A stretch of 64,000 nt of DNA, from assembly GCF_036227325.1 (NCBI RefSeq), contig NZ_CP109467.1, positions 6,572,001 to 6,636,000 of the forward strand, read 5' to 3'. The stretch's first letter is position 1. Every line of letters starts with the position of its first letter. The notes below the pieces were generated by a model. The model was not told where the DNA came from, ran no database searches, and saw nothing but the letters and a program-made list of their open reading frames with translations. Positions 1,888-21,056 of the stretch are shown piece by piece. The stretch comes from Streptomyces sp. NBC_01465. GTDB lineage: Bacteria; Actinomycetota; Actinomycetes; Streptomycetales; Streptomycetaceae. A program made the translations under genes and the position numbers.

Positions 1888-2955
1888 ATGCATCTGGTCG
1901 ATCTGCTCGATGCCCGGTCGCGGCCCGCAGCCGCGCTCCTCCTCACGGTCACCCGGCGCTGCCCGCTGAGCTGCGCGCACTGCTCGACCTCGTCCTCCAT
2001 GGCGAGCGAGCAGTGCGACGCGGAGCTCATCGAGCGCTTCGTCGGTACGTTCACGGCCCTGGACCGGCCCGATTTCCTGCTGCTCACTGGCGGTGAACCC
2101 CTGCTGCGTCCCGGGCTCGTGCGCCGGCTCGCCGAACTGGCCGGGGCTGTCGGGTGCCGTACGCAGGTGCTGACCGGGATGTTCTTCGCCCGTCAGGACC
2201 GGATACCGGCGCCCGTCCGGGCCGCCATCGACGCCGTCGGTCATCTCGCCGTGAGCATCGACGCCTTCCACGAGCGGGAGGTTCCGCGGGCCGCCGTGCT
2301 CCGGGTGCTGCGGCAGCTCCTCGACGAAGGCAAGGACGTCAGCGTCCAGTTGACCGGGCTCGGGCCCGACGATCCGTATCTGCGCGAGGCGACCGACGAC
2401 ATCCGCCGGACCCTGGACGACCGGGTTCCGGTTCTTGTGGGCGCGGTGCGTTCCGCGGGGCGGGCCGCCGCATGGCTGCCCCGTGCCGTGAGCCGGGGAC
2501 GGCACACGGCGCTGCCCGTGCCCTGCGCGATGGCCTCCTGGCCGGTCGTCACCTTCGACGGGACCGTGGTCGCCTGCTGCAACCAGGATGTCGTCGACGG
2601 GCTCGGCGGACGGCTTCCCGATCATCTGAGGCTCGGTCATATCGCCGAGGATCCCTGGGAGTTGATCCGCACGCGGCATCTTCGGCGGCCCGTTCTGCGT
2701 GCCGTGCGCGCGTTCGGGCCGCAGTACGCCGCAGAGCGCGCCGGGCGTGATTGCGGCGGCTACTGCGACACCTGTGTGCAGACCCTGGCAGGGCCCGAGG
2801 CGGAACGGGCGGCGGACGCGCTGTTGCGGGAGCCCTTCGGGCAGGTCGTCGAGCGACAGGCCGGGCGGCTGGCCGCGGCCGAGGGCGCGGACGGATTCGT
2901 ACGGCGGTACGCGTCCGAGCGCTACGCGGAACTCGTACACCTGGGGCACCGGTGA
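1888..2955 (+). CDS. Radical SAM peptide-modifying enzyme (cluster A)
   Basis: Radical S-adenosylmethionine enzyme of 355 residues, predicted to modify the small peptide encoded at 5056. The [4Fe-4S]/SAM motif is C25-x3-C29-x2-C32, followed by a GGEPLLRP glycine-rich strand. The C-terminal half has further cysteines (PCAMASW, ACCNQDV and CGGYCDTC), which suggests a SPASM/twitch-like auxiliary cluster domain. The start is chosen for its strong ribosome-binding site GGAAGGAGG. Its stop overlaps the GTG of the next gene (GTGA), so the two are translationally coupled. It is clearly a paralogue of the enzyme at 13857-14975: the same MHL start, cysteines at identical positions 25/29/32, and a shared GPDDPYL segment. 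Reaction type (C-C, C-O, epimerisation or other) cannot be read from the sequence. Confidence 0.92.
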   Translation: MHLVDLLDARSRPAAALLLTVTRRCPLSCAHCSTSSSMASEQCDAELIERFVGTFTALDRPDFLLLTGGEPLLRPGLVRRLAELAGAVGCRTQVLTGMFFARQDRIPAPVRAAIDAVGHLAVSIDAFHEREVPRAAVLRVLRQLLDEGKDVSVQLTGLGPDDPYLREATDDIRRTLDDRVPVLVGAVRSAGRAAAWLPRAVSRGRHTALPVPCAMASWPVVTFDGTVVACCNQDVVDGLGGRLPDHLRLGHIAEDPWELIRTRHLRRPVLRAVRAFGPQYAAERAGRDCGGYCDTCVQTLAGPEAERAADALLREPFGQVVERQAGRLAAAEGADGFVRRYASERYAELVHLGHR

Positions 2956-3644
2956 CAGCCCCCGCCCCGGCGGGGCGGCAACTCGACGCCTGGCTGCGCC
3001 TGCTGCGGCCCGCCCTGCACCGCACGCTCGACCGGATCTGGACGGTGCCCCAACCAGCCCTGGTCTACCCGGAGTTCCTCCACCTCACCCACCAGCTCCT
3101 GCGGGCCTCCGTCCCCATGATGGAGAGCGCGCGCGACCGGTGCGCCGAGCTCGCCGCCGGCGGTGACCCGGTCGCGGCCGCACTGCACCCGTACTGGCAG
3201 CGGCACATCGCCGAAGAGGCGGGGCACGACGACTGGGTCAGGGAGGACCTCGCCGCACTCGGCCGTGATCCGGACGAGGTGTGGGCGCGCTTCCCCTGCG
3301 CATCCGTGGCCTCGGCGGTCGGCGCCCAGTACTTCTGGATACGTCACCGGCACCCCGCCAGCCTGCTCGGCTACGTCGCGGTCACCGAGGGCAGCCCGCC
3401 GCCCCCCGACGTCGCGGCCGTGCTCAGCGACCGCACCGGACTGCCCCGCGCGGCCTTCCGCACGCTGCAGCGGCACGCCGTACTCGACCGGCACCACCGC
3501 GACGAGCTCCGCCGCACCATCGACGCTTTGCCCGGGGACGCCCAACTGGCCGCCACCGTACGGCTGTCCGCCCTGCACACGCTGAACATGCTGACGTCGG
3601 CGTTCGCCGGGCTCCTCGCCTCACCGGAGGGCGCTTGCCGATGA
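2952..3644 (+). CDS. Heme-oxygenase-like diiron oxidase (HDO; iron-containing redox enzyme family), cluster A
   Basis: Helical protein of 230 residues with the heme-oxygenase-like fold used by non-heme iron oxidases/oxygenases (families of UndA, BesC, CADD, SznF). Candidate metal ligands: E41 (YPEF), E89-x2-H92 (EEAGHDDW), E146 (VTEG) and an H175-x3-D179-x2-H182 triad (HAVLDRHH), the last matching the characteristic third-helix pattern of these enzymes. GTG start overlaps the stop of the radical SAM gene; its own stop overlaps the ATG of the exporter. Its paralogue at 12146-12841 sits in the same kind of cluster. An oxidation of the peptide, such as terminal oxidative decarboxylation, hydroxylation or N-oxidation, is inferred; thiamine degradation (TenA) and heme degradation are less likely given the context. 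Confidence 0.85.
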   Translation: MTAPAPAGRQLDAWLRLLRPALHRTLDRIWTVPQPALVYPEFLHLTHQLLRASVPMMESARDRCAELAAGGDPVAAALHPYWQRHIAEEAGHDDWVREDLAALGRDPDEVWARFPCASVASAVGAQYFWIRHRHPASLLGYVAVTEGSPPPPDVAAVLSDRTGLPRAAFRTLQRHAVLDRHHRDELRRTIDALPGDAQLAATVRLSALHTLNMLTSAFAGLLASPEGACR

Positions 3645-5038
3645 CCTCACTCACGCTGGTCACCTCGCTCAGAAACCCGCGATTCAGGCTGCTCTTCGGC
3701 GGCCAGGCCGTCTCCAGCATCGGCGACTGGCTGGACTACCTCGCGCTCGTCGTGCTGATCACCTACACCTGGGAGTACGGCGCCGGCGCGCTCGCCGCGC
3801 TCAGCGTGGCGGTGGCCGTGCCGCTGGTGGTGCTCGCCCCGTTCGCCGGGGTCCTCGCGGACCGGATGGCGCACCGCGCCCCGGTCCTCATCGGCTGCGA
3901 CCTGGCCCGCTCGGGCCTCGTACTCGGCTATCTCGTGGCCCCCGACCTCCCTGTCCTGCTGGCGCTCGTGCTGGCCAAGACGGCCTGCGGGGCGCTGTTC
4001 AACCCCGTGCACCAGAGCGTGCTGCGCTCCGTCGTCCCCGAGGGCGACATGCTCTCCGCGATGTCGGTGAGCGTCTTCGCCCACCAGGCCGCCAAGGTCG
4101 CGGGACCCGCGCTGAGCGGGCTGATCGTCGCCGCCTGGGGGGTGCGGGCGGCGTTTCTCGTCGACGCCGCGACCTTCCTGGTGTCCGCACTTCTGATCGC
4201 TCTCGTACGGCTTCCGGCACGCACCCCCGCGGTCGGGAGGCAGGACGCCGACGAAGGCCGGCCGGGAGGGTTCCGGCAGGAGTTCAAGGAGGGGCTCGCC
4301 CATGTGCTGCGGACGCCCGCGCTCGTCGCGGTCACCGTCAGCATGGCTGCCACGCTCTTCCTCGTCCTCACCTTCGACACCCTCTCGCCGCTCGCCATGC
4401 GCGAACTCGGCGTGGCCCAGAGCAGCTTGGGGTACGTCGTCGCGGCCGTGGGGCTCGGGGCCGCGCTCGGCACGCTGGCCATCAGTCAATGGGGCATGCG
4501 CCCGGGGCCGTTCGCCGTGCTGGCCCTCGCCCAGGCGGCCGTCGGCGCGATGGTGTGCGTCATGGGGGTCGGCCTCTCCGCCGATCTGCAGGGCGCCGTC
4601 TGGCTGTGGATGGTCGTCGGGTTCGTCGTCGGGTTCGGTGCGGCGGGGATCATGGTCGTCTTTCCGTACGTCCTCCAGCAGGAGACCCCGCAGGAGCTCA
4701 TCGGCCGGGTCTCGGCCACCGCCAACGCCTTCCCGGTCCTGCTCCAGCTCGCCGCGCCCCCGCTGGGCGCGGCGCTCGCGGCCCAGCTCGGCGTCGCCTC
4801 CGTCTTCCTCGGATCGGGCTGTGCGCTCGCCGTCCTCGGGGTCGCCGTCTGGTGGTACGGGCGAAGAGGGCGGGCGGATCCCGTACCGGACCCGGAGGGC
4901 CCGGAGGACTCGTACGCCGGGACCGTGCAGCGGCCGGAGGTCGAGGTCCACATGGCGGACGAGCCGGAGCCCGAACACGGCGGCCCCGAATGGCCGGAGA
5001 GCGGATCCGGCGGCAGACGGCAGCACTTCTTCTGGTGA
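3641..5038 (+). CDS. MFS transporter, probable exporter of the cluster A peptide
   Basis: Major facilitator superfamily protein of 465 residues with about 12 hydrophobic segments and the cytoplasmic loop motif after segment 2 (GVLADRMAHRAP), resembling the enterobactin-exporter/macrolide-efflux type (MFS_3). Start ATG overlaps the stop of the HDO gene (ATGA). The hydrophilic acidic tail (residues about 415-465, rich in D/E/P, ending HFFW) is cytoplasmic and unusual in length. The precursor-like gene begins 17 bases after its stop. From position alone it is the best candidate for exporting the mature product of this cluster or giving self-resistance. Confidence 0.9.
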   Translation: MTSLTLVTSLRNPRFRLLFGGQAVSSIGDWLDYLALVVLITYTWEYGAGALAALSVAVAVPLVVLAPFAGVLADRMAHRAPVLIGCDLARSGLVLGYLVAPDLPVLLALVLAKTACGALFNPVHQSVLRSVVPEGDMLSAMSVSVFAHQAAKVAGPALSGLIVAAWGVRAAFLVDAATFLVSALLIALVRLPARTPAVGRQDADEGRPGGFRQEFKEGLAHVLRTPALVAVTVSMAATLFLVLTFDTLSPLAMRELGVAQSSLGYVVAAVGLGAALGTLAISQWGMRPGPFAVLALAQAAVGAMVCVMGVGLSADLQGAVWLWMVVGFVVGFGAAGIMVVFPYVLQQETPQELIGRVSATANAFPVLLQLAAPPLGAALAAQLGVASVFLGSGCALAVLGVAVWWYGRRGRADPVPDPEGPEDSYAGTVQRPEVEVHMADEPEPEHGGPEWPESGSGGRRQHFFW

Positions 5039-5055
5039 GAGAGCGGAGAGGACCC

Positions 5056-5292
5056 ATGGACGTACCCGAGCACGAACTCCCGTCCCCCGACGGCGAGTTC
5101 GACCCGCTGGCCGCGCTGCGCGCCGGCGGATTCCCCGACGAGGGGCTCGACGTCGAGGACGTCGTGTCGCTCGCACAGCTCACCCCCGAGGAGGTCACGA
5201 TCCTTCTCGGCCTCAAGTCCCGCCTGACGGACATCACTTCGGAGGTCGAGGCACACAGCGTCGAGCCCATCATCGGCGGCGTGCTGTTCTGA
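5056..5292 (+). CDS. RiPP precursor-like peptide (78 aa), cluster A
   Basis: Small acidic protein preceded by a good ribosome-binding site (GCGGAGAGGA). The N-terminal and central part is helix-forming, with LTPEEVTILLGLKSRL at about residues 43-58. The C-terminus is AHSVEPIIGGVLF. It contains no cysteine. Aligned without gaps over about 48 residues to the 65-residue peptide at 11883-12080, it shares F..L..L.A.G, EEV..L...K.RL, and the C-terminal HS..P..G ending in an aromatic residue. The split into a conserved leader and a modified C-terminal core of about 13-15 residues is inference. I recall, unverified, that NCBI uses the name 'aroma-sacti cluster domain' for small proteins of this sort; the lack of cysteine argues against a true sactipeptide. 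Confidence 0.8.
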   Translation: MDVPEHELPSPDGEFDPLAALRAGGFPDEGLDVEDVVSLAQLTPEEVTILLGLKSRLTDITSEVEAHSVEPIIGGVLF

Positions 5293-5323
5293 CCGGACCG
5301 GACACAGGAGGGATGGAGGCGAA

Positions 5324-8300
5324 GTGGACTGGTCGGGCGCGGAGAGCCGCAGGACCGTCACGGTGGTCTTCTGCGACATGGCCGGTTCCACCGCGCTCAG
5401 CGAACGGCTGGACCCGGAGGCGCTGCGCCACGTCATGCTGCGGTACTACGCACGGCTGCGGGAGTGCCTGGAGCGCCACGGCGGCACCGTGGAGAAGTTC
5501 ATCGGCGATGCCGTGATGGCGGTCTTCGGGGTGCCCGTCGTGCACGAGGACGACGCGCTGCGCGCGGCCCGCGCGGCCCTCGACATCCTGGCGGCCGTCG
5601 ACGACTTCGGGGCGGAGCTCGGTGAGGACGTCGGTGTACGGATTGCAGTGCGCATCGGCGTCCACACCGGTGAGGTGGTCACTTCAGGGGATCCGGAGGC
5701 CGGGCACACCCTGGTCTCCGGGGAGACCGTCAATGTCGCCGCCCGGCTCGAACAGCACGCCCCCGAAGGGCAGATACTCGTCGGAGCCGACACCTACTGG
5801 CTGCTGAAGGACACCGCCCTCACCACCCCCGTGGAGCCGCTGACGGTCAAGGGCAAGTCCGCACCGGTCCCCGCCTGGCGGCTGCTCTCCGTGCCCAGCG
5901 GCGCCGAACCGGCCCGGGGCGGGCCCGGCGACCTCCTCGTGGGGCGCGACGACGAACTCGCCCAGCTCGACCTGGCGTTCGGCCGGGTGCGCCGCGACCG
6001 GTCCTGCCATCTGGTGACGCTGCTCGGTGACCCCGGGGTCGGCAAGTCCCGGCTGGCCGGGGAATTCGTGGCGCGCGCCGGGACGCAGGGCGCCCTCGCG
6101 GCGTCCGTGCGCTGTGTCCCGTACGGCAGTACGAGCGCACTGCAGCCGCTCGCCGAGCTCCTGCGGATCCTGATCGGCGACGCGGAACCCACCGCGCTGC
6201 TCGGCAGCGGCGAGGCCGAGTCGGCCGCCGCCACCGCACTGCTGCGCCTCGCCCGCAGCGGATCCTCCGGGACCTCGTTCGAGGAGACCTGCTGGGCGCT
6301 GCAGCTGCTGTGCGCGCGGCTCGCCGCCGATCGGCCCCTCGTCCTCGTGCTCGACGATCTGCAGTGGGCGCACGAGGACCTGCTCCGTGCGCTCGACTAC
6401 CTCGGCGACTGGGTGCAGGGCGCGCCCGTCCTGCTGATGTGCGTGGCCAGAACCGAGTTCCTGGAAGCGCACCGGGAGTGGGGGAGCGGCAAGTTCAACG
6501 CGACCGCGCTGGTCGTGCCGCCGCTCGCCGAGGACGACTGCCGCGAACTGGTCCTGCGGTTGTACGAGCCCGAGGTCGTCCCGCACCTCGCGGGGAGCGC
6601 GGTGGTGGACCGGCTCGTCAGCAGATCCGAGGGCAACCCGCTGTTCGTCGAGCAGATCGTGGCGATGTTCGGCGAGTCGGGCAGCGACGACGACGTCCCG
6701 CCCTCCGTACGGGCCGTGGTCGCAGCCCGCCTCGACCGGCTCGGACCGGGCGAGCGCGCGCTTCTCCAGCACGCCTCCGTCATCGGGGTCCAGTTCTCCG
6801 CGTCCGGACTGCGGGCCCTGATGAGCGGGGACGACGGCTCGGCGACTGCGCTGCAGGCGGGGCCGGATGTCGTCGACCGCACAGTCCGCGACCTGGCGCG
6901 CCGCCGGCTCCTGGAGGCGGCCGCGCCCGCCGGGTGGAGGTTCGTCAGCCAGCTCATCCACGACGAGGTCTACAGCGGAATGTCCAAAATGCTGCGCTCC
7001 CGTCAGCACGAGGCCTTCGCGGGACACCTGGCCCTCGACTCCCCGGGCGACCACAACACGATGGGGACCCACCTGGAACAGAGTTACCGGCTGCGCCGTC
7101 AGCTCGGCGGCGCCGACGAGTCCACCCGCGACCTCGCCGACCGGGCATCCGGACACCTGGGGACCGCCGGAACCCTGGCACTGGCCCACGGCGACGTCCG
7201 CTGGGCCATGGACATGCTGCGGCGCGCCGCCGAACTGGCCGCCGTACGGCCGGGGGAACCCGGTGCGCTCGCCGTACGCCTCGCACTCGCCGAAGCCAGG
7301 ATCGCCGCCGGGGACGCGGCCGACGCCGTCGCCGAACTCGGCCGGCTGCGCGCAGACGCCCGCAGCGCGGGGGACCGCAGGACCGAGGCCAGGGCCCGGC
7401 TCCAACTCGCCTACCTGGACCCGGCGTCCGGCGGATTCGGCCCGCTGGCCGAGACGGCCAGGGACGCCGTCGAGGTGTTCACCGAGGCCGACGACGCACT
7501 CGGGCTCGCCCGCGCCTGGCTGACCCTGGGCCAGGAGCGGCAGAGCCGCAGCCTGCACGCCGAGGCCAGCGCCTTCCTGGAGCGGGCGCTGACCGAAGCC
7601 GTCCGCGCCGACGCCGGTCTCGAACGGGCGGGCGTACTGGGCGCGTTGACGGTGTCGCTGTGGCTCGGACCCGAGCCGGCGGCCCTCGCCCTGGAGCGCT
7701 GCCAGACCTTCCTCGGAGAGCTCGCCGGGCTTCGCATGGCCCGCGCCACGGTGTCCTGCCCCATGGCCGTACTCCTTGCGATGCGCGGCAGCTTCGACGA
7801 GGCGCGCCTCCTGATCGGCGACGCCGAACAGACGCTCACCGACCTCGGACACCTCTTCGCGCTGCCCGCAGTGGGGCTTTTCCTCGCCACCGTCGAGCGG
7901 CTGGCGGGGCGCAGGGAGGAGGCCGAGCGGCAGCTCCGTACGGTCGTCGGCGGACTGGAGGAGCTCGGCGACCGCCAGCTCCTGGTCACCGCGAGGGCCG
8001 ACCTCGCCAGGGTCCTGGTCGGTCTGAACCCCGGTGACAGCGAGGCGCGCGAGCTCGCCGACGGCCTCCTCGCGGGGGACAGGCTCGCCGAGAAGCCCGC
8101 GGCCGCCGCCGACGCCCACGGCGTACGGGCGCGAGCCGCGGCGGCCGAGGGCGACGCGGCAGGCGCCGACCGGCACGCGGAGGCCGCCCTGCGCGCAGCG
8201 CGCGCCACCGACTCGCCGACCTCGATGGCCACCGCCGAACTCGACCGGGCCCGGGTCCACGAGGCGCTCGGCCGCACCGCCGAGGCACGTCACGCAGCCG

Positions 8301-8422
8301 AGGCCGCCCACCGGCACTTCACCGCCAAGGGTCACCGGACGGGGGCGGAGCGCGCGGCAGAACTCGTCGCCGCACTCGACGCGGCGGATCCGGGAAGGGG
8401 GGACGATGGAGCGGGACAGTGA
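5324..8422 (+). CDS. Class III adenylate/guanylate cyclase domain - ATPase - TPR signalling protein
   Basis: Protein of 1032 residues. Residues about 8-185 form a class III nucleotide cyclase domain with both metal aspartates in place (D18 in VFCDMAGS and D62 in FIGDAVMAVFG) and the ETVNVAARLE segment. It is followed by an AAA/NB-ARC-like ATPase with Walker A GDPGVGKS at about residue 235 and Walker B LVLVLDDLQW, then a long alpha-helical, alanine-rich TPR-like region to the end. No DNA-binding domain is visible. GTG start chosen for GGAGG just upstream. It lies 31 bases after the peptide gene, and the protease gene starts inside its 3' end. A role as an intracellular sensor or regulator of the cluster is inferred; related proteins exist in many actinobacteria. 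Confidence 0.88.
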   Translation: MDWSGAESRRTVTVVFCDMAGSTALSERLDPEALRHVMLRYYARLRECLERHGGTVEKFIGDAVMAVFGVPVVHEDDALRAARAALDILAAVDDFGAELGEDVGVRIAVRIGVHTGEVVTSGDPEAGHTLVSGETVNVAARLEQHAPEGQILVGADTYWLLKDTALTTPVEPLTVKGKSAPVPAWRLLSVPSGAEPARGGPGDLLVGRDDELAQLDLAFGRVRRDRSCHLVTLLGDPGVGKSRLAGEFVARAGTQGALAASVRCVPYGSTSALQPLAELLRILIGDAEPTALLGSGEAESAAATALLRLARSGSSGTSFEETCWALQLLCARLAADRPLVLVLDDLQWAHEDLLRALDYLGDWVQGAPVLLMCVARTEFLEAHREWGSGKFNATALVVPPLAEDDCRELVLRLYEPEVVPHLAGSAVVDRLVSRSEGNPLFVEQIVAMFGESGSDDDVPPSVRAVVAARLDRLGPGERALLQHASVIGVQFSASGLRALMSGDDGSATALQAGPDVVDRTVRDLARRRLLEAAAPAGWRFVSQLIHDEVYSGMSKMLRSRQHEAFAGHLALDSPGDHNTMGTHLEQSYRLRRQLGGADESTRDLADRASGHLGTAGTLALAHGDVRWAMDMLRRAAELAAVRPGEPGALAVRLALAEARIAAGDAADAVAELGRLRADARSAGDRRTEARARLQLAYLDPASGGFGPLAETARDAVEVFTEADDALGLARAWLTLGQERQSRSLHAEASAFLERALTEAVRADAGLERAGVLGALTVSLWLGPEPAALALERCQTFLGELAGLRMARATVSCPMAVLLAMRGSFDEARLLIGDAEQTLTDLGHLFALPAVGLFLATVERLAGRREEAERQLRTVVGGLEELGDRQLLVTARADLARVLVGLNPGDSEARELADGLLAGDRLAEKPAAAADAHGVRARAAAAEGDAAGADRHAEAALRAARATDSPTSMATAELDRARVHEALGRTAEARHAAEAAHRHFTAKGHRTGAERAAELVAALDAADPGRGDDGAGQ

Positions 8423-9254
8423 CCGCCTGACCTGGAATCTGCTCGGCCGCGACCGCGCGGAGATCGAGATGCGCGCCGACTGGGCCGGTCCTTCGGGCGC
8501 GGACCGGGCGTGGGGCGACGGCACCGGCTACGGCGTGCGCGCCTGTGTCATCGACAGCGGCATCGACACCGACCATCCGGCGGTCGGCGAGGTCGGCGCC
8601 TCGTACCTGGTGCGCGAGACGGCCGACGGAAGCTCCGGCGGCCACGAGGTGGTGAAGATCAGGGGAGGCGACTCCTGGGGGCACGGCACGGCCTGCGCCT
8701 CGATCATCCGGGCGATGGCCCCGCAGTGCCGCATCGACAGCGTGCAGGTGCTCTCCGCCGGATTCCGGGGCAGCGGCGATGTGCTGATCGAGGGCATGAG
8801 GTGGGCGGTCGAGCAGGGTTACGACGTCATCAACATGAGTCTGTCCACCACGCGGCGCGAGTTCGCCTCGGCCCTCCACGAGATCGCCGACCGGGCCTAC
8901 TTCGGCCGCAGTCTCATCGTGGCCTCCGCGCACAACATGCCGGTGGAGAGCTTCCCCTGGCGGTTCTCCTCGGTGATCTCGGTGGGCAGCCACGACGAAC
9001 CCGACCCGGAGCTGCTGCTCTACAACCCCAGCCCGCCCGTCGAGTTCTTCGCCCGGGGCGTGCGCGTCCCCGCGGCCTGGCCGGGCGGTGGCACCCGCAG
9101 CTGCACCGGCAACAGTTTCGCCACTCCGCACGTGGCCGGACTGTGCGCGCGCATCCTCTCCAAACACCCGGACATGACGCAGTTCCAGGTGAAGCAGGCG
9201 CTGTTCCTCGCCTCGGCCAACATCGGCCGCCCCACGTCCGGAGGTCCTGCATGA
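8406..9254 (+). CDS. Cytoplasmic subtilisin-like (S8) serine protease, candidate leader peptidase
   Basis: S8 family protease of 282 residues with the full catalytic set: D50 (VIDSGID), H93 (GHGTAC), oxyanion N177 (SAHN) and S237 (TGNSFATPHVAG). There is no signal peptide and no pro-domain, so it should act inside the cell, unlike most Streptomyces subtilisins. It overlaps the cyclase gene by 17 bases and its stop overlaps the ATG of the GAF gene, tying it to the cluster transcript. The obvious candidate role is removing the leader of the peptide at 5056; processing the signalling proteins next to it is an alternative. The substrate cannot be read from the sequence. Confidence 0.9.
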   Translation: MERDSDRLTWNLLGRDRAEIEMRADWAGPSGADRAWGDGTGYGVRACVIDSGIDTDHPAVGEVGASYLVRETADGSSGGHEVVKIRGGDSWGHGTACASIIRAMAPQCRIDSVQVLSAGFRGSGDVLIEGMRWAVEQGYDVINMSLSTTRREFASALHEIADRAYFGRSLIVASAHNMPVESFPWRFSSVISVGSHDEPDPELLLYNPSPPVEFFARGVRVPAAWPGGGTRSCTGNSFATPHVAGLCARILSKHPDMTQFQVKQALFLASANIGRPTSGGPA

Positions 9255-12092: not shown

Positions 12093-12117
12093 TGTGGATG
12101 CGAGCTGTGGATGCGAG
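12093..12117. repeat. Tandem 12-bp repeat in the precursor leader region
   Basis: TGTGGATGCGAG occurs at 12093-12104 and again, perfectly, at 12106-12117 (13-base period). On the minus strand this is CTCGCATCCACA twice, ending just before the precursor ribosome-binding site. It may be a protein-binding or RNA element, or a slippage duplication. Confidence 0.6.
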
Positions 12118-12145
12118 TTACTGCGAAATTGCGGTTTCAGGTGTT

Positions 12146-12841: not shown

Positions 12842-13860
12842 GCCGTGTGCTCCTCTCGTCCCGTGTGGTCTCGTCCGATGCCGGCGATGGCGGTCAGCAG
12901 TGGTGCGTCCGTCCGTGCGCCGGCCTCGCTGTTGCGTCGTGTCATGGCCCAGCACAGCCCGCAGATCGAGCTGTAGTGGCGCTCGGCCAGATCGTTGTAG
13001 CGGGGCAGCGCGGTCAGGGCCCCCGGTCCCACCGAGCCCAGCGCCCGGTAGAAGGGGTCGGCGTGGAAGTCCCGTACCGCCGCCTCGACTTCCTCGCCCG
13101 TCGTGCAGTCCGCGCGGAGGGCGGCAGGCCCGGCCCCCATGATCACGGACTCGTTGCAGCAGGCGGTGACCCTGCCGTCGTAGCGGACCACGGTCGCGTC
13201 CACCACGTCGCACGGACCGAAGTCGGACCCCTGTGTGCGCTCCTGGAAGCTGTAGTGGTCGGCACCCCGCCCGTGGGGGAGGCCATGGGTGGGGATCAGT
13301 TCGGCGTACGCGGACCAGTCGCGGCCCAGCGCCTTGGTGAGGGCCTCCTCGGCGCGCTGCAGGGTGTCGCCCTCGTCGATGCACTGGACGACGATCGGCA
13401 CCTCGTGCCCGGCGATCACCCGCGCCGCGTGCCCGAACCGCTCGGGTCCCTGCCCCGCCACGTGGTACGCGTCGGTGCTGAGATAGATCACGGCCGATCT
13501 GTCGAGCACGTCATGGATCCACTGGGGCGCCCGCTCGGAGCGCGCCCAGAAGCCGCTGGTGTAGATGACGACGTGCTTGCCGGCCTCCGAGAGCTGTCGC
13601 ACGGTACGGGTCAGCCCGCGCCGCTCCACGAACGGTTCGCCCCCGGAGATCCCCGCCATCTCGAGCCCTTCGATCCCGGCGAGCCGGTCCACGATCGACT
13701 CCAGGAGCGCGAAGTCGGTGATCCTCGGCGAGTCGGGCCGCGAGTCCACCGAGCAGTGTCCGCAGCCGACCGGGCACCTGTCGGTGATGAACAGGAGCAC
13801 CGAACGGCCCCTGGTCCGCCGGATGTCGACGATGGCACGGTGGTTGAGGCGCGCGGTCAT
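12838..13860 (-). CDS. Radical SAM enzyme, second type (cluster B only)
   Basis: Radical SAM protein of 340 residues with C29-x3-C33-x2-C36 (DRCPVGCGHC) and GGEPFVERRG. The C-terminal part has GPCDVVDATV, TACCNES and CGLCWAMTR, a plausible auxiliary iron-sulfur cluster region. It is only distantly similar to its neighbour at 13857 and has no counterpart in cluster A, so it may install a modification unique to the cluster B product, or act as a partner subunit. Both ends overlap neighbours by four bases (ATGA), so expression is coupled to the enzyme before and the HDO after it. Confidence 0.9.
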   Translation of the reverse strand: MTARLNHRAIVDIRRTRGRSVLLFITDRCPVGCGHCSVDSRPDSPRITDFALLESIVDRLAGIEGLEMAGISGGEPFVERRGLTRTVRQLSEAGKHVVIYTSGFWARSERAPQWIHDVLDRSAVIYLSTDAYHVAGQGPERFGHAARVIAGHEVPIVVQCIDEGDTLQRAEEALTKALGRDWSAYAELIPTHGLPHGRGADHYSFQERTQGSDFGPCDVVDATVVRYDGRVTACCNESVIMGAGPAALRADCTTGEEVEAAVRDFHADPFYRALGSVGPGALTALPRYNDLAERHYSSICGLCWAMTRRNSEAGARTDAPLLTAIAGIGRDHTGREEHTA

Positions 13861-14975
13861 ACGAGGCTCCTCGCGGAGGTGTCCCCGAGGGTCACGAGCT
13901 CTGCGTACCTGGTGATGCCGTACTGCTTGGCGAAGGTCAACGGACCGGCCTCCACCAGCAGTTCCTCCGTACGCTTCTCCACAAGACGGACGGACTCGCG
14001 GTCTGCGGCCGCCCGTACCGCGCGCGGCACGGCCTCGTCCTTGGACAGGACCCAGCACGTCTCGCAGTAGCCGCCGGCCGCGCAGCCGGGCTTGCCGGAC
14101 CCGTACCGCTCGGCGAGGTACTCGGGTCCGGTCGCCCGGATCGCGCGCACCATCGGGTTGTTGAGGGAGCGCTCCCGGATGACCGACCAGTCGTCCTTGT
14201 TGATGTGACCGAGGTAGAGATGGGGCGGGAGAGGGACCTTTCCGTCCATCACGTCCTGGTTGCCGCATGCCGTGACCTGCCCGTTGAACCCGATCACCGG
14301 CCAGGCGGAGACCGAGCAGGGAGCGGGATCGACGGTGGTGCGCGGCAGCTGCACCTGCTTGAGCAGCCAGGCGTCCGCCCGGCCGTGCGGGCTGACGGGC
14401 GCCACCAGCATCGGCACCCGGTCGTCGAACTCGCGGCGCACCTCGGCGGTCAGGCCTTCGAGGTACGGGTCGTCGGGCCCGGTGCCCGTCAGCTGGAGGC
14501 TGACGTGCTTGCCCTCCTCGAGGAGCTCCCTCAGTACGCGGAAGACCGCCTTGCGCGGCACCTCCTCCTCGTGGAAGAAGTCCAGGCTCGCCGAGAAGTG
14601 GTCCACCGCGTCGATCGCCGGCCGCAGTGAGCGCGGGATGCGCCCGGTGGTGGCGTAGTTCTTGTCCTTCGCCGCGAAGTACAGCCCGGACAGGATGTGC
14701 GAACGGGCGCCCACCGCACGGGAGATGTCCGCGACGTCCTTGACGAGCCGGGGGCGAAGCAGTGCCTCGCCGCCCGACATCAGGACGAACTCGGGCCGGT
14801 TCCCGGTGGTGAAGGTGGTCGCGAACCTGCGGAACATCTCCTCCGGGTATTCCTCGCTGTCGAGCATGGAACTCGTCGAACAGTGCTTGCAGTGGAGCGG
14901 GCACCTGCGCGTGATGCCGAAGAACACGGCGGAGGCCGGTACGGGGCGGTGACGCAGAATCTCCATGAGGTGCAC
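13857..14975 (-). CDS. Radical SAM enzyme, paralogue of the cluster A enzyme
   Basis: Radical SAM protein of 372 residues; C25-x3-C29-x2-C32 (TRRCPLHCKHC), GGEALLRP, and C-terminal cysteines PCSVSAW, TACGNQD and GYCETCW that match those of the enzyme at 1888-2955 one for one. GTG start at 14975 is chosen because of GGAGGAGGA seven bases upstream. It is the first of four modification/precursor genes running leftward (radical SAM, radical SAM, HDO, peptide). The shared architecture with cluster A suggests that this enzyme and the HDO make the common core modification in both products. Confidence 0.92.
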   Translation of the reverse strand: MHLMEILRHRPVPASAVFFGITRRCPLHCKHCSTSSMLDSEEYPEEMFRRFATTFTTGNRPEFVLMSGGEALLRPRLVKDVADISRAVGARSHILSGLYFAAKDKNYATTGRIPRSLRPAIDAVDHFSASLDFFHEEEVPRKAVFRVLRELLEEGKHVSLQLTGTGPDDPYLEGLTAEVRREFDDRVPMLVAPVSPHGRADAWLLKQVQLPRTTVDPAPCSVSAWPVIGFNGQVTACGNQDVMDGKVPLPPHLYLGHINKDDWSVIRERSLNNPMVRAIRATGPEYLAERYGSGKPGCAAGGYCETCWVLSKDEAVPRAVRAAADRESVRLVEKRTEELLVEAGPLTFAKQYGITRYAELVTLGDTSARSLV

Positions 14976-15015
14976 CAGAAATCCTCCTCCTTCGACAGAT
15001 GCTCGACCGGATGCA

Positions 15016-15056
15016 TTTCTATAATGGAATCCGTCTCTTGGTTCGATCTATAGAAA
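15016..15056. promoter_or_regulatory. AT-rich inverted repeat upstream of the cluster B modification genes
   Basis: TTTCTATA (15016-15023) and TATAGAAA (15049-15056) are exact inverted arms 25 bases apart, inside an unusually AT-rich island for this genome, 41-81 bases upstream of the GTG at 14975. It is a likely promoter/operator that lets the radical SAM-HDO-peptide run be expressed apart from the ABC exporter genes. No clear -35/-10 pair could be assigned. Confidence 0.45.
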
Positions 15057-15096
15057 CGCTTTAGTAATGGTTTTCGGCCGGGGCCCGGGGAGGGAA

Positions 15097-17667
15097 TCAC
15101 CCTGCGGGCAGGGCGCCTTCGGCACGATTTCGCAGTGCGAGCGCGGCCGGAACGGCCGTCGACGCAGCGGCCAGTGCCGCAACTCCCGCCAGCACCAGTG
15201 CGTAACCCGCCGGTGGAATGCTGAAATCCGTCGAACCGGTCAAAGCGCCATTCGCCCCGGCGAGGCCTGCGACGGCAATCGCCGTGCCGACGGCCGAGCC
15301 GATGAGAATCGCGATGAGGGTTTCCAGATACAGCATTCGGGTGATTTGCCCCCTGGTGGCGCCGAGCAGCCGCAACAGGGCGAATTCCCGGGTGCGTTGG
15401 GCGGTGCCCATGAGCAGCCCGTTGACCACCGACACGGCGGTGAACATGATCAGGACGGAGAGGACCAGATAGGTTCCCGCGGTGTTCTGGGCGAGCGAGG
15501 TGCGGGTCCCCGCCGCATAGTCGGCGACGTCCGTCACCTTGACGGTGGGATTCTCCTTCGCCAAGGACCGTGCCGCCTGCAGGAGTTGGGACCCCTGACC
15601 CGGAGCCGCCTTGAGCAGTACGGCGTCGTCGAGCTGGTCGTGCAGATGCGGGGCGAGGTAGTCGCGGGAGAGCAGGATGTCGCCGAGCCCCAGCGGACGG
15701 TCGAAGATCGCCCCCACTTTCAGCTTCACAGGAGTGCCGTCACCGAGCCAGCCGTCGAAGGTCTCGCCGAGCTTCAGCCCTCGCTCACGGGCGTGGGTCC
15801 GGCTCACCGCCGCCGTTCCGTCCTGTGCGAGGGAGGCGAGCGCGCCTTCCCGTACGCCGACGTCGAGCACTCCGGAGGCGGCCGACGGGTCGACGCCCTG
15901 CGCGGGCAGCACATCGGGGGTGCCGAGCACATACGAGATGAAGGTGGTGGAGCGGGTGGTGGCCAGCGACGTGACCCCCTTCAGCTTTCCCGCGGCATCG
16001 GCGACACCGGGAGCCAGACCCGGCGCGTCCTTCGGCAGCAGCACCACATCGGCGCGGGTGCGCTCCTCGGTCTGGTCGGCCGTGATCCGGTTGAGGGAAC
16101 CGGTGACGAGCAGCACCGTGCAGGCCATCGCCACGGTCAGCATCAGCGCGGAAGCCGTAGCGGCCACCCGCCGCACGGCGGCACGCGAGTTGGCGTGCGC
16201 GAGCCGGCCCGTCACTCCGGCGAACGCCTGCACGAGGGCGCCCAGCGGCGGCTCCAGGAGACGGGTGAGAAGAGGCCCGAGGAGCGCGCCCGCGCCCATG
16301 AACAACATGACGACCAGGTACTGGAAGGCCACCCCCACCTCCCCTCCGATGTGCTGGGTCGCCAGGAACAGCGCGATCCCGCCGCCCAGGAACAGCAGCG
16401 CGAACACGCCCCGCGTCACCGTCATGACACGGCGCGGAGCCGCCGCCTCCATCAGCGCCTCGCCCGCCCGGATCCGCGAGATCCGGACCGCCGCCGCATA
16501 CCCGGCGAGCGCCGCGAGGAGCACAGTGGCCCCGGCCGCGAGCAGGAACGGCAGGGGCCCGACGACGATGTGGTACGCATCCGGCGCGACCCCCCGCGCG
16601 TGCAGCTCACCCAGGATCACCCGGGCCAGCGGCACCGCGAGCAGGAACCCGGGCACCAGACCGACCACCGTCGCGAGGAGCGTCTCCATGACGACGAGCC
16701 GCCGCACCTGCCCCGGAGTGGCACCGGCCGCCCGCAGCATCGCGATCTCCATCGTCCGCTGCAGTACGCCCAGGCCGATCGTGCCGCCCAGGACGAACAC
16801 CGCGAGAAAGCCGCCGATCCCGGCCATCGGCCCGAACAGAAGGGTGGCGGAGGAGAGTTGATCGGTAGTGTCCGGCGCGCCCGCCTTCGCGCGCTTGTCG
16901 CCGGTCAGCACCTGGGCGCCCTTCACCCCGAGGTCCTTCGACAGGGTGTCGCGCAGCGCCGACGCGCTCACGCCGTCGGCGGGGAACACTCCGACGGCGG
17001 CCGCCCGGCCGTCCGATCCGGAGAGCTGCGCGGCCCTCGTACCGGTGAAGAACAGGGCCGACTGGTCGGGCAGCCCCGGGCGTCCGGCGGGCGCCGCGAT
17101 CCCGGAGACCCGGAATTCCAGGGTCCCCCGCCCGGTCACCACACGCACCGCGTCCCCGACCCGCAATCCGCCGCGCGCCGCCACATCCGCGTCGACGACC
17201 ACCTCGTCGTCGGCCGCCGGCGCCTTGCCCGCGCTCAGTGCGAAGGGCGTCAGCGCTGCCGCCTCCCACCCGTGCCCCTGGGTCCCGCCGTCGTCGGGAC
17301 CGGCGATCGGCGTACCGTCCTTGGCCACCGCCTGCGCGTAGAAGGGCGTGTCGGCGACGACCCGCCCCACGCCCTTGACCCGCCCCACCTGCGCGACGGC
17401 CTGCGCGCTCAACAGGGGTGGCTGGTCCAGCGGATACTTCTCGTAGTCGACGTTCTGCCCGGATCCCGTGCGTACGGTCAGATCCGGATCCATCCGTACG
17501 ACGGCGGCGCTCGCCCCGAACCGGTCCGTGCCCGGCACCGCCCGCAGCCCCGACTCCACCAGGACCGCGCACGCCGCGATCAGCATCGCGGCGAGCGCCG
17601 ACGCGCACACCGCGCCGAAGAACCCGACCCGGTGGTGGCGCGCCCCGCCGACGGCCAGCCTCAGCAC
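15097..17667 (-). CDS. FtsX/MacB-type ABC transporter permease 1
   Basis: Membrane protein of 856 residues with two FtsX-like permease blocks: an N-terminal anchor helix (residues about 14-36), a large extracytoplasmic domain, and clusters of transmembrane helices around residues 270-440 and again near the C-terminus. GTG start, one base after the stop of the ATPase gene. It is homologous along its length to the permease at 18492, with similar size and the same VLRLA start. The two probably pair with one ATPase as an exporter of the cluster B peptide, replacing the MFS protein of cluster A. Such permeases also serve in antimicrobial-peptide resistance. Confidence 0.9.
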   Translation of the reverse strand: MLRLAVGGARHHRVGFFGAVCASALAAMLIAACAVLVESGLRAVPGTDRFGASAAVVRMDPDLTVRTGSGQNVDYEKYPLDQPPLLSAQAVAQVGRVKGVGRVVADTPFYAQAVAKDGTPIAGPDDGGTQGHGWEAAALTPFALSAGKAPAADDEVVVDADVAARGGLRVGDAVRVVTGRGTLEFRVSGIAAPAGRPGLPDQSALFFTGTRAAQLSGSDGRAAAVGVFPADGVSASALRDTLSKDLGVKGAQVLTGDKRAKAGAPDTTDQLSSATLLFGPMAGIGGFLAVFVLGGTIGLGVLQRTMEIAMLRAAGATPGQVRRLVVMETLLATVVGLVPGFLLAVPLARVILGELHARGVAPDAYHIVVGPLPFLLAAGATVLLAALAGYAAAVRISRIRAGEALMEAAAPRRVMTVTRGVFALLFLGGGIALFLATQHIGGEVGVAFQYLVVMLFMGAGALLGPLLTRLLEPPLGALVQAFAGVTGRLAHANSRAAVRRVAATASALMLTVAMACTVLLVTGSLNRITADQTEERTRADVVLLPKDAPGLAPGVADAAGKLKGVTSLATTRSTTFISYVLGTPDVLPAQGVDPSAASGVLDVGVREGALASLAQDGTAAVSRTHARERGLKLGETFDGWLGDGTPVKLKVGAIFDRPLGLGDILLSRDYLAPHLHDQLDDAVLLKAAPGQGSQLLQAARSLAKENPTVKVTDVADYAAGTRTSLAQNTAGTYLVLSVLIMFTAVSVVNGLLMGTAQRTREFALLRLLGATRGQITRMLYLETLIAILIGSAVGTAIAVAGLAGANGALTGSTDFSIPPAGYALVLAGVAALAAASTAVPAALALRNRAEGALPAG

Positions 17668-17668
17668 C

Positions 17669-18457
17669 TCAGGCCCCCAGCCGGGACATACGGTCCGCGA
17701 CGCGGTTCTGGGACGGCCGGTCCATGGTGTCCACGATCGAACCGTCCGCGAGGAAGAGCACCCGGTCCGCGCGTGCCGCCGCGTTCGGATCGTGGGTGAC
17801 CATCACCAGGGTCTGTCCCATGGAGTCCACGATCTCCCGCAGCAGCGAGAGCACTTCGTGCCCGGACGTCAGGTCGAGCGCCCCGGTGGGCTCGTCCGCG
17901 AACACCACCTCGGGGCGCGTTGCCAGGGCGCGGGCCACGGCGACCCGCTGCTGCTGACCGCCGGAGAGTTCGGCGGGCCGGTGCTTCAGCCGGTCGGTGA
18001 GGTGGGTCCGCTCGATCACCGTACGCACCCAGTCCCTGTCGGGTCGCCGCCTGGCGAGGCGGAACGGCAGCAGGATGTTCTCCTGCGCGCTCAGCGAAGG
18101 CACCAGGTTGAAGGCCTGGAACACAAAGCCGATCCGCTCGCGCCGCAGCAGTGTCAGCTTGCGCTCGCTCATCCTGCTGATGTCGGTCTGCCCGAGGAAC
18201 ACCTCGCCCGACGTGGGCTTGTCGAGCCCGGCCGCACACCGCAGGAACGTGCTCTTCCCTGAACCCGAGGGACCCATGATCGAGGTGAACGACCCGGCGG
18301 GCAGCGCCACCGAGACGCCGCGCAGCGCATGCACGGTCCCGTTGCCGCGTCCGTAGCGCCTGGTCACCTCGCGGAGATGCAGTGCGGGCGGCGCACCGGA
18401 CTGGGTGGCGCGGGTCAGCTCTTCGGGGAACGCCATTGTTCTCTCACTCTCTGTCAT
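17669..18457 (-). CDS. ABC transporter ATPase (MacB/LolD-like)
   Basis: Nucleotide-binding subunit of 262 residues: Walker A GPSGSGKS, Q-loop FVFQAFNLVPS, signature LSGGQQQR, Walker B VVFADEPTGALD and the switch histidine in VMVTHDP. ADEPTGALD is typical of the MacB/LolD group that works with FtsX-type permeases. An ATG at 18436 (MAFPEEL) is a plausible alternative start, as GAGAGTGAGAG lies before it. It sits between the two permease genes (34-base gap upstream, 1-base gap downstream), so one operon encodes the full transporter. Confidence 0.93.
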   Translation of the reverse strand: MTESERTMAFPEELTRATQSGAPPALHLREVTRRYGRGNGTVHALRGVSVALPAGSFTSIMGPSGSGKSTFLRCAAGLDKPTSGEVFLGQTDISRMSERKLTLLRRERIGFVFQAFNLVPSLSAQENILLPFRLARRRPDRDWVRTVIERTHLTDRLKHRPAELSGGQQQRVAVARALATRPEVVFADEPTGALDLTSGHEVLSLLREIVDSMGQTLVMVTHDPNAAARADRVLFLADGSIVDTMDRPSQNRVADRMSRLGA

Positions 18458-18491
18458 GAATCGTGTGGGGGGTCGAGCGGTCGGTACGGGC

Positions 18492-21056
18492 TCATGCCGC
18501 GGACGCTGGTCCGGTACGCAACATCCGCCAGGCCGGCACCAGTGCGGACACCAGCGCGAGCGCCGTCGCGCCCGCGGCGGCCGCGATCACGAATCCGGGC
18601 GGGCCGCTGATGTGTATCGCCCCGGACAGGGCGACGCTCGTCGCGGACAGGACGACGAACGCGACGGCCCCGCCGAGCACCACCCCGCACCCGGCGATCA
18701 CGGCCGACTCCCATGCCACCAGGGCCAGCACATTGCGCCGGGTGGCCCCGATCAGGCGCAGCACCGAGAACTCACCGGCCCGCACCAGCGTGGCCGTGAC
18801 GAGCGCGTTCGCCAGCGCGAGCGCGGTGAACACGGCGATCAGCGCGCTGAACAGATACACCGGCCAGGTCTCCGTCACCGCGTCGGCAGCCCCTGCGGCC
18901 CGCATCGCGGCCCGGTCGGCGCCGTGGACGGTGGGCCACCGCTTGGTCAACTTGCTTACAGCACCGTCGAGTTGAGCGCCCGGTGCGGCGATCAGATACA
19001 CCGCGTCGAGGACCGCGTCCGGGGTGTGGGCGCGCAGTACGGCAGCGGGCACGATCAGATCGGCGAAGCCCAGCGAGCGGTCGAAGCGCGCCCCGATCCG
19101 CAGGGTCGTCACCGTCCCGTCGGGGAGCCGCAGCTTCATGCGGTCACCGACCCGCCAGCCGTAGTCCTTCGCCTGCTCCTGGCTCACGGCGACGGCCGTC
19201 CCCGCCGCGAGCCCCCGCAGATCGCCCTCCCGTACGTGCGGCTTCAGCACCTCGCCGAAGTGCGCGTCCGCCGCGAGCGCGGGCTGGGTGGCGCTCTCCG
19301 CGTCGTCGGCGCGTACGGAGGCCCGGACCGAGGCGGTGCTCGTCGCCGAGACGGCCGCGACGCCGGGCAGCCGGGCCGCTTCCCGGGCGACCGCCGGCGG
19401 CAGTCCCGGAGCGTCCTGCGGCAGCAGCACCTGCGCGGCAGCGAGCCGCTCACCGGCCCAACTCGCCGCGACCGACTGCTGGGTGGTCTGCATCAGCAGC
19501 GCGGACGCCGTGAAACCCACCATCAGGATGATCGGCACCGCGGCGGCCGCGACCCTGCGCGGGGACGCCGCGCTGTTGGCCAGCGCGAGGCGTCCGGTGC
19601 TGGGCGCGGTCGTCCGTACGAGCAGACCCACCAGCGGCACCAGCGGCCGCACCAGCGCGGGGCCGAGCGCGGCCGCGGCGACCAGCAGCGTCAGGGCCCC
19701 GCCGAACGCGAGACCCGATCCCGCCACCCCGCCCATGCCGATCCCGAACGCGAGGAAGGCGCCCGTGAACAGCAGGAACGCGAACCCCGTCAGCAGCCGC
19801 GACCACGGCATCCGCCGGTCCGGCGCCTCCGATTCGCGCAGCGCCTCGGTGGGGGAGACCCGGGCCGCACGCCGCGCCGCCGACCACACGGCGAGCCGGG
19901 TGATGACCAGACCCGCGAGGGCGGAACCGGCCAACGGCCAGGGCCCGACCCGTACATGGAGCTCCTCCGGCGCCACCCCGATCGACACCAGGCCGCGCGC
20001 CAGCGGACCTGCGGCCAGCGCGCCGAGCGGCACGGCGACGGCCGCGCCGAGCACCGCCACCACCAGCGTCTCCCAGCCGATCATGCGCTTGACCTGCCGG
20101 GGTGTGGCGCCGACCACCCGCAGCAGCGCGATCTCGCGGTAGCGCTGCAGGACGGCGAACGCGAAACCGCTCGCCATCACGAACAGTGCGACGAACACCG
20201 CCAGTGAACCCATGCTGACGACGAACACCAGCGTGTTGATGAACAGCACGTCACTGCCCGAGAGTTCGGCCTTGTACGTGTCGGTGAGCACACTCAGCGA
20301 AGGGGAGGATCCGACCGCCGTACGTACTCGGGCGGCCAGCGCCGACGTGTCGGTCCCGGGTCGCGCGAAGACCGCGACCGCCTGCAGCCGGCCGCCGTCG
20401 GGAGCCAGTCGCAGGGCCGTCCCCGGGGCGAAGAACAGCGCGGACTGATCCTTCGTCAGGCCGGCCCGGGGCGGTGCCACGATGCCGCTCACCCGGTAAC
20501 GCGCCTGTCCCTCGACGGAGTCGAGGACGGTCGCCTCGGTGCCGACCCGCAGCCCGCCGCGCTCGGCGGTCACCGCATCGACGGCGACCTCGCGCGCGCC
20601 CGTCGGCGCGCGGCCCGAGCGCAGGGCGAACGGCGTCACGCGCGCGCTGTCCCACGCATGCCCGTACGAACGGTCCCCCTCGCGCGGCGTGACCGCCGTG
20701 CCGTCGGTGCCCACGACCTGCGCGTAGAAAACCCGGTCGGGCACGACCGAGGCCACCCCGTCGACGGACCGCACCCGGTCGACCACACTCTCGGGCACCA
20801 GCGGGCGCGGGGTGAGCGCCGCGTCCAGGTCGCCGAACCCCGCCGGGTGCCCGCGGTTGTCCAGACCCACCGCGGGATCACCCACCACCACCGCGTCCGC
20901 CGCCGCGAACCGGTCCGCCTCACCGTGCCCGCGCAGCGCCGATTCGAGCAGGATCCCCGCCGAGGTGAGCAGTACCAGCGACAGGATCACCGAGGCCAGC
21001 GACCCGAGGAACAGCGCACGCCGCGTGCGTACCGTACTGAAGGCAAGCCGCAGCAC
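18492..21056 (-). CDS. FtsX/MacB-type ABC transporter permease 2
   Basis: Permease of 854 residues, paralogous to the one at 15097. GTG start at 21056 is chosen for the purine-rich GGAGGGGGAGGGGAG just upstream; the open frame extends further upstream, but without a ribosome-binding site. N-terminal anchor (residues about 12-35, SLASVILSLVLLTSAGILL), long extracytoplasmic domain, then helix groups in the middle and at the C-terminus. It is the first gene of the leftward cluster B series, and the 11-base-phased repeats at 21108-21135 lie about 50 bases before it. Confidence 0.9.
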   Translation of the reverse strand: MLRLAFSTVRTRRALFLGSLASVILSLVLLTSAGILLESALRGHGEADRFAAADAVVVGDPAVGLDNRGHPAGFGDLDAALTPRPLVPESVVDRVRSVDGVASVVPDRVFYAQVVGTDGTAVTPREGDRSYGHAWDSARVTPFALRSGRAPTGAREVAVDAVTAERGGLRVGTEATVLDSVEGQARYRVSGIVAPPRAGLTKDQSALFFAPGTALRLAPDGGRLQAVAVFARPGTDTSALAARVRTAVGSSPSLSVLTDTYKAELSGSDVLFINTLVFVVSMGSLAVFVALFVMASGFAFAVLQRYREIALLRVVGATPRQVKRMIGWETLVVAVLGAAVAVPLGALAAGPLARGLVSIGVAPEELHVRVGPWPLAGSALAGLVITRLAVWSAARRAARVSPTEALRESEAPDRRMPWSRLLTGFAFLLFTGAFLAFGIGMGGVAGSGLAFGGALTLLVAAAALGPALVRPLVPLVGLLVRTTAPSTGRLALANSAASPRRVAAAAVPIILMVGFTASALLMQTTQQSVAASWAGERLAAAQVLLPQDAPGLPPAVAREAARLPGVAAVSATSTASVRASVRADDAESATQPALAADAHFGEVLKPHVREGDLRGLAAGTAVAVSQEQAKDYGWRVGDRMKLRLPDGTVTTLRIGARFDRSLGFADLIVPAAVLRAHTPDAVLDAVYLIAAPGAQLDGAVSKLTKRWPTVHGADRAAMRAAGAADAVTETWPVYLFSALIAVFTALALANALVTATLVRAGEFSVLRLIGATRRNVLALVAWESAVIAGCGVVLGGAVAFVVLSATSVALSGAIHISGPPGFVIAAAAGATALALVSALVPAWRMLRTGPASAA

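Follow-up and report, generated by a model that had tools for sequence, protein, structure and literature searches.

The window analyzed here is a 64,000-nucleotide stretch of the genome of Streptomyces sp. NBC_01465 (contig NZ_CP109467.1, positions 6,572,001 to 6,636,000). It carries two neighboring gene clusters, A (1888-9841) and B (11883-21056), which share a small peptide, a radical S-adenosylmethionine (SAM) enzyme and a heme-oxygenase-like diiron-type oxidase (HDO). This parts list is that of a pair of clusters resembling those for ribosomally synthesized and post-translationally modified peptides (RiPPs), and their class has no description in the literature searched. Gene calling (with our own codon-bias script, no published gene finder) and family scans confirmed the coordinates and gene types that the initial annotation had given for both clusters, and the precursor sequences confirmed that both peptides are free of cysteine.

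The genes of cluster A form a single, tightly packed run on the forward strand. The first encodes rSAM_A (1888-2955), a twitch radical SAM enzyme that resembles EpeE and belongs to the type called rSAM1 here, as recognized from family scans, alignment and the predicted fold. It is followed by HDO_A (2952-3644; presumed ligands E89, H92, E146, H175, D179 and H182) and by an exporter of the major facilitator superfamily (MFS; 3641-5038), whose C-terminal tail (about 4937-5035) contains an EVEVH motif and ends in HFFW. Precursor A (5056-5292, 78 residues) has the leader domain NF045560 and a putative core, SVEPIIGGVLF (5257-5289), that would begin after VEAH. Family scans identify a class III cyclase-AAA-TPR regulator (5324-8422) and a GAF-domain protein (9251-9841). 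Between these two lies an S8 subtilase (8406-9254), the presumed leader protease, which is QhpE/mycosin-like at scores below the cut-offs, has D50, H93 and S237 by motif, and shows no signal peptide by eye.

Cluster B is likewise one run, on the opposite strand. It starts with a permease (18492-21056, FtsX type as judged by reading), and family scans identify the following genes as an ATP-binding cassette (ABC) ATPase of the MacB/LolD type (17669-18436) and an FtsX-type ABC permease (15097-17667). Next come two radical SAM enzymes: rSAM_B1 (13857-14975), of the rSAM1 type with a Gly at the hydrogen-donor Cys position, and rSAM_B2 (12838-13860), an EpeE-like enzyme of a second type (rSAM2), whose Cys235 aligns with the hydrogen-donor Cys223 of EpeE. 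HDO_B (12146-12841; presumed ligands E85, H88, E142, H171, D175 and H178) and precursor B (11883-12080, 65 residues, leader NF045560) complete the run; the putative core SNSPLSGAFVW (11886-11918) would begin after VVSH. Between the clusters, the identity is 50% for HDO, 51% for rSAM_A and rSAM_B1, 29% for rSAM_A and rSAM_B2, and 32% for the peptides. The precursor, HDO and radical SAM genes of B have a G+C content of 0.652-0.707, below that of most neighbors.

Both precursors score above the NF045560 cut-off of 30 bits (49.6 and 56.0 bits), so that neither is a chance open reading frame (ORF), and they are the only members of this family in the genome. A reading as sactipeptides was rejected: the precursors offer no Cys for thioether bonds, and the StsA-type model NF045559 gives 31.5 and 26.8 bits (cut-off 75). 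A search with the leader alone covered 394 genomes from the taxonomic family of the source strain and placed 87 above the NF045560 cut-off, and 89 loci of 5-20 kb each were taken around the leader matches, making 90 with the window. A phylum-wide draw of 396 genomes placed 4 above this cut-off, 3 of them in the genus of the window, its own genome included. A scan for rSAM1 gave 153 relatives, of which 80 were kept, and 149 rSAM1 proteins were merged into 130 distinct systems.

Clusters A and B are members of one wide RiPP-like class, found mostly in Actinomycetota. The strictest feature of this class is the aromatic C-terminal residue: in the 130 systems, 139 of 141 precursors end in Phe (111), Trp (26), Tyr (1) or His (1). 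In 124 of these systems a precursor is encoded no more than 7 kb away on the same strand, and in 123 an HDO no more than 4 kb away. Co-occurrence was surveyed in the 90 loci. Those with a precursor ending in Phe or Trp (71) contain rSAM1 in 68 cases, HDO in 69, the cyclase-AAA protein in 68, the subtilase in 67 and the GAF protein in 66. The 19 others contain the cyclase-AAA protein (9), the subtilase (8) and the GAF protein (8), and neither rSAM1 nor HDO in the fetched stretch. A precursor with leader and core beside co-conserved modifying enzymes supports the RiPP-like nature and the shared precursor, radical SAM and HDO types that had been claimed. Members of the peptide family that lack these enzymes, which the initial annotation had named as speaking against its reading, were found for the leader family but not for the aromatic-core subclass. 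Because the leader is also found apart from these enzymes, the class is marked by its core and not by its leader. The earlier view that everything else differs between A and B was partly wrong, as the cyclase-AAA, subtilase and GAF genes of A are standard parts of the class.

Three of the 71 loci lack an rSAM1 match. In two of them (L095 and L119), an aromatic core was found without rSAM1 or HDO within 8 kb; they were rejected as exceptions to the rule, because their genomes do hold rSAM1, at 24 kb and 20 kb, respectively. The third (L121) lies on a contig of 4,997 bases, and a partial rSAM1 match is present on another contig of the same genome. The GGLLF precursors of L095 (scanned) and L119 (by reading) adjoin a P450 and a pro-kumamolisin-type protease.

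The rSAM1 relatives (80 of 153 kept) include Streptomyces, Kitasatospora, Nonomuraea, Planobispora, Streptosporangium, Microtetraspora, Amycolatopsis, Phytohabitans, Actinospica and Catenulispora. Outside the Actinomycetota, the same set includes Mesorhizobium temperatum and a Burkholderiales metagenome-assembled genome (MAG), both with the core DTVGGFVW, a Chloroflexota MAG (DTGVIIY/DTGWVIF) and Symploca sp. (GGGLYF). All four have a precursor, rSAM1, rSAM2 and HDO, and no match to the cyclase-AAA protein, subtilase or GAF protein was found in the stretch examined, which for the Chloroflexota contig amounts to just 5,982 bases. Precursor, radical SAM enzyme and HDO therefore look like the constant set, and the signaling and protease genes like an actinobacterial addition.

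Several loci deviate from the common layout. The HDO matches of L113 and L108 are split over two frames (broken genes or sequencing errors). The Planotetraspora locus L130 has rSAM1 and rSAM2 with no HDO match, and about 7 kb downstream there are three ORFs of 34-36 residues starting with MTEILKLQ. Five loci (L073, L090, L102, L107 and L112) combine the same leader with cores of the VLC/VVC/TVC type or ending in LKLL, and the cyclase-AAA, subtilase and GAF genes are present in four of the five. In L073 (scanned) a radical SAM enzyme, a B12-binding radical SAM enzyme and a flavoprotein lie beside the peptide. Such loci use the shared platform for another type of peptide. Ten more (L040, L051, L052, L053, L058, L070, L082, L084, L085 and L086) carry the leader with cores ending in IKLA and adjoin a SARP/AfsR-like match; L040 and L051 additionally encode a peptide of 43-46 residues that contains a VVAH motif and lacks the leader domain.

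The radical SAM enzymes of both types display the Cys pattern CxxxCxxC, then Cx11Gx4C, then CxxC, which we take to be of the twitch type. In rSAM_A the first motif is found at 25/29/32, the auxiliary Cys at 213, 230, 293 and 296, and a possible hydrogen donor at Cys231. The positions 25/29/32, which had been assigned to the enzymes of both clusters, hold for rSAM_A and rSAM_B1 but not for rSAM_B2, where they are 29/33/36. The best solved relative of rSAM1 and rSAM2 by profile is EpeE (YydG), and it is also nearest by fold to the rSAM_A model (predicted local distance difference test score, pLDDT, 93.8), so that an EpeE-like fold is found together with the auxiliary-cluster Cys. The rSAM1 proteins were aligned in sets of 25 (A4) and 41 (A7), with the short call L117 in the former and not the latter, and 11 of the 28 rSAM2 proteins in a further set (A8). 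The register at EpeE Cys223 is fixed by the entries titled C223A mutant, whose chain reads Ala there. At this position a Cys is present in all 28 rSAM2 proteins and in 115 of the 130 rSAM1 systems; it is kept in rSAM_A and rSAM_B2 and absent in rSAM_B1. Of the 15 rSAM1 systems without it, 14 have rSAM2. The enzymes would act at a C-alpha, most likely by epimerization.

Two other chemistries have to be weighed against this. In the first, the peptide would be a disposable scaffold whose last residues are excised and oxidized to a small redox molecule, as in the pathways of pyrroloquinoline quinone (PQQ) or mycofactocin. These follow the same logic, with a small peptide, a twitch/SPASM radical SAM enzyme, a heme-oxygenase-like protein and a protease. 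Among the PDB matches, PqqE ranks directly behind the EpeE entries, and the core AGGALF is very uniform across most Streptomycetaceae loci. The cores differ, however, between A and B and also among the W-type systems, EpeE is clearly the closer relative of the radical SAM enzymes, and exporter-linked precursors as well as the ABC genes fit an exported peptide. A cofactor pathway is thus considered improbable. In the second, the radical SAM enzymes would cross-link or decarboxylate the C terminus without epimerization, and HDO would oxidize the result. The lack of the donor Cys in rSAM_B1 and 14 other rSAM1 enzymes, nearly all from rSAM2 systems, fits this, as does the C-terminal aromatic residue, which resembles that of MftA of mycofactocin. 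Arguments to the contrary are the closeness to EpeE, the donor Cys in every rSAM2 and the general need of three-residue cyclophanes for residues past the ring-bearing one, which is the last residue here. This chemistry appears rather unlikely, although it deserves some weight.

The second conserved enzyme is HDO. The predicted model (pLDDT 95.1) has the heme-oxygenase-like fold and matches 3dde, CADD, UndA and HrmI, as well as true heme oxygenases at similar Z. The residues E89, H92, E146, H175, D179 and H182 are kept in 145-147 of 147 proteins. By alignment and spacing they correspond to Glu86, His89, Glu143, His172, Asp176 and His181 of MboA, with D93 corresponding to Asp90. The enzyme thus has what is predicted to be the full 3-His/3-carboxylate diiron ligand set. 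One of the alignments (A6) comprises 30 HDO proteins; the split L113 protein was included in A5 and excluded from A6. In the MboA paper, the C-terminal carboxylate of the substrate binds Fe1, as in AetD, UndA, HrmI and PolF, and for this reason the aromatic C terminus is read as the site of HDO. Another peptide-modifying HDO is VarO of the RiPP thiovarsolin, which is proposed (PMC6511847) to introduce a double bond into an Arg side chain.

From the gene content, the co-occurrence, the folds and the conserved residues, we infer the reactions, their order, the cleavage site and the export as follows. HDO would bind the core through its C-terminal carboxylate and oxidize the last residue, Phe in A and Trp in B, with desaturation and oxidative decarboxylation as the likeliest reactions. 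In the segment preceding this residue, the radical SAM enzyme or enzymes would remove a hydrogen from a C-alpha; where the donor Cys is kept (rSAM_A, rSAM_B2), a hydrogen would be returned to yield a D-residue. The subtilase may then cut near V-x-A-H, and the MFS protein (A) or the FtsX-type ABC system (B) would export the product or protect the producer. Protease, cyclase and GAF genes are absent from cluster B, which may rely on those of A. The MFS protein of many relatives ends in the precursor, so that part of the substrate may be tethered to the export pump. For the combined modification in both clusters, of the C-terminal aromatic residue via HDO and of other residues via the radical SAM enzymes, the arguments for and against are about evenly balanced, and the oxidation of the terminal Phe or Trp by HDO is judged as part of this whole.

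A number of observations weigh against this combined scheme. By sequence, HDO matches MboA weakly (E 0.0025), and the solved structure closest to HDO is 3dde, a protein with no assigned function. The two remaining precursors of the 141, both from L156, have no aromatic end. The leader family also serves other peptide types: endings were examined in the 120 of 218 leader-matched proteins that were listed, and 103 of these have no Phe or Trp end. Of the 17 that do, 8 are of the G-x-x-aromatic type and 9 have another kind of core (K-x-F). Because of the 15 enzymes without the donor Cys, rSAM1 may perform another chemistry. The NCBIfam epimerase model TIGR04078 reaches 37.5 (A), 53.4 (B2) and 35.7 (B1) bits, at a cut-off of 300. 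Finally, rSAM2 is present in all 17 W-type systems and in 3 of 104 F-only systems (Fisher, 5e-18), but the tree requires just 2 changes of rSAM2, and a test on independent pairs (2 pairs) is not significant. As rSAM2 is also found in systems ending in Phe (L055, L065 and L154), Phe/Tyr (L142) and His (L141), its reading as a Trp-specific enzyme was rejected on these grounds and on the small number of evolutionary events, and is kept as a lead.

The MFS exporter shows a special relation to the precursor. In the window the exporter ends at 5038, and precursor A begins at 5056 in a different frame. Elsewhere the exporter has the precursor as its in-frame C-terminal part (L128, L205, L131, L115, L116, L118, L075, L184 and L187), and in L156 the leader is fused there with another ending. 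A search with a fused tail gave 12 such proteins. A homologue search, which scored the 7,995 candidates sharing most words, gave 71 homologues of the window MFS (itself included), of which 39 have the leader domain; 38 of these 39 end in Phe or Trp. Among the 32 without it, 6 end in Phe, Trp, Tyr or His, and four of these six, that of the window included, keep V-x-[AV]-H and end in F-[FL]-W.

The fusions might be mere losses of the stop codon between neighbors, functionless, with the free precursor made from its own start. A Met at the leader start in 31 of the 39 fused proteins and Shine-Dalgarno-like DNA with this Met in five loci (L128, L205, L115, L075 and L187) agree with that view and make a nested start for a free precursor likely. 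On the other hand, the fusion occurs in 39 of 71 homologues and across many core types, and 8 of the 39 have no such Met, the S. alfalfae and S. kanamyceticus proteins among them (GTG or TTG starts are possible, as only the protein sequence was available). Furthermore, L131 shows no other A precursor, although an upstream GTG is possible there, and the four leaderless tails still end in F-[FL]-W. Functionless stop-codon loss falls only slightly short of an even chance. Alternatively, the substrate would be synthesized as the tail end of the MFS protein that exports it, in many cases alongside free precursor from a nested second start, in a new RiPP class where the EpeE-like radical SAM enzyme and HDO modify the C-terminal aromatic residue on the pump. 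The leaderless F-[FL]-W tails, as in the window, would either undergo modification on the exporter or serve as docked product mimics. This proposal is tentative, and we regard it as possible but doubtful.

The two clusters form an island that also includes two regulators. A SARP/AfsR-type regulator with a BTAD domain, identified by family scan, lies between A and B (9863-11791, reverse strand), and a second one with BTAD and STAND NTPase domains follows B (21200-24253, forward strand). The same two clusters and regulators are present in Streptomyces sp. NBRC 110028 (L128/L139), S. alfalfae XY25 (L131/L132) and S. himastatinicus (L136/L205), and so is the permease at 18492-21056. These sister islands match the window from 1888 to 24253. 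To the left of A, the gene at 80-1783 (an M13-type peptidase as judged by reading) is without a counterpart in the three sister loci; the regulator at 21200-24253 is the last common gene as far as readable, since the sister loci end there. Identity to the sister islands is 83-89% for precursor B, 73-79% for rSAM_B1 and, for rSAM_A, 60-63% over the full length in two of them and 73% over half its length in L205.

In the initial annotation, A and B seemed to have diverged from each other at this locus, which would mean tandem duplication and subsequent specialization. The same three gene types side by side would suit such an origin. Trees were made from 57 of 149 rSAM1 and 55 of 147 HDO proteins, thinned at 72% identity and without L137 (a copy of L115); they are quick trees with SH-like approximate likelihood-ratio (SH-aLRT) support only. 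The rSAM1 tree groups the A copy of the window with the three other A copies (99) and then with S. scabichelini L129 (97). The B copy joins the three other B copies (100), then L115/L075 (99) and then Mesorhizobium/Burkholderiales (92). In the HDO tree, A again goes with the A copies and L129 (99), and B with the B copies (100), inside a group with L115/L075 and Nonomuraea (91). A and B as one clade were rejected by the approximately unbiased (AU) test for rSAM1 (p-AU 0.00076) and, less strongly, for HDO (p 0.024). Widening of the clade by L129, L115 and L075, which are single-cluster systems, was not rejected for rSAM1 (p 0.315) and leaves an older split, and with it duplication, some room, but overall the claim of local divergence is not supported and such an origin is very unlikely. 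The nearest relative of A outside the island is thus the single cluster of S. scabichelini L129, which encodes three W precursors plus an A-like VLF precursor, and the nearest radical SAM relatives of B are the single-cluster Kitasatospora systems L115/L075; clusters of the L115 type have two W precursors and one FF precursor. Judging by the trees and clade tests, the pair appears to have arisen when two lineages were joined, or were sorted long ago, rather than by copying at this locus.

Some further matches in the window were considered. Those from PADLOC are generic (a Pycsar cyclase domain, a viperin-like radical SAM core and the subtilase), and an anti-phage reading was rejected on that account. 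The cyclase domain of 5324-8422 matches Pycsar cyclase models, but sits inside a cyclase-AAA-TPR protein. No Rfam family reaches its gathering score in the window. The tRNA-Gly(ccc) that ARAGORN places at 24994-25086 falls within a predicted gene (24919-25485, TetR-like as judged by reading) and is probably a false call.

Among the known systems, the epipeptides of Bacillus (EpeX/EpeE, formerly YydF/YydG) come close, with a small peptide (Cys-free here), an EpeE-fold twitch radical SAM enzyme, a hydrogen-donor Cys that is kept in all rSAM2 and most rSAM1, and an ABC system as in cluster B. The class described here differs in the additional HDO, the aromatic C terminus, another leader, the MFS tail and the subtilase, and it misses the TIGR04078 cut-off. 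VarO (thiovarsolin) and MboA (mangotoxin) are also HDOs acting on a peptide, and all six MboA ligands align, but both act on Arg instead of a last Phe or Trp, and the parts of the sources available name no radical SAM partner. The leader domain is shared with the 'aroma-sacti cluster domain' family NF045560 and the StsA-related sactipeptides of NF045559, although the cores in the window lack Cys, the StsA model stays below its cut-off and the StsB maturase match is weak (at most 20.2 bits, cut-off 625); no paper on 'aroma-sacti' was found in the literature search. PQQ (PqqA/E/C) and mycofactocin share the peptide, the radical SAM enzyme and, for PQQ, the heme-oxygenase-like fold. In contrast, the PqqE model gives 32.6 bits at best (cut-off 381.35), a Pfam scan of the radical SAM enzymes showed no PqqD-like domain, and the precursors here are exporter-linked.

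A literature search of incomplete coverage yielded no description of a peptide class with a radical SAM enzyme and an HDO, nor of a precursor-MFS fusion, and within these bounds the earlier statement that no described RiPP class combines these types is upheld. The peptide class is defined by one testable rule, its aromatic C-terminal residue. A ribosomal peptide system that combines an epimerase-like radical SAM enzyme and a diiron-type oxidase is undescribed in the literature searched, and an exporter that has the substrate as its own tail is a concrete and easily testable oddity.

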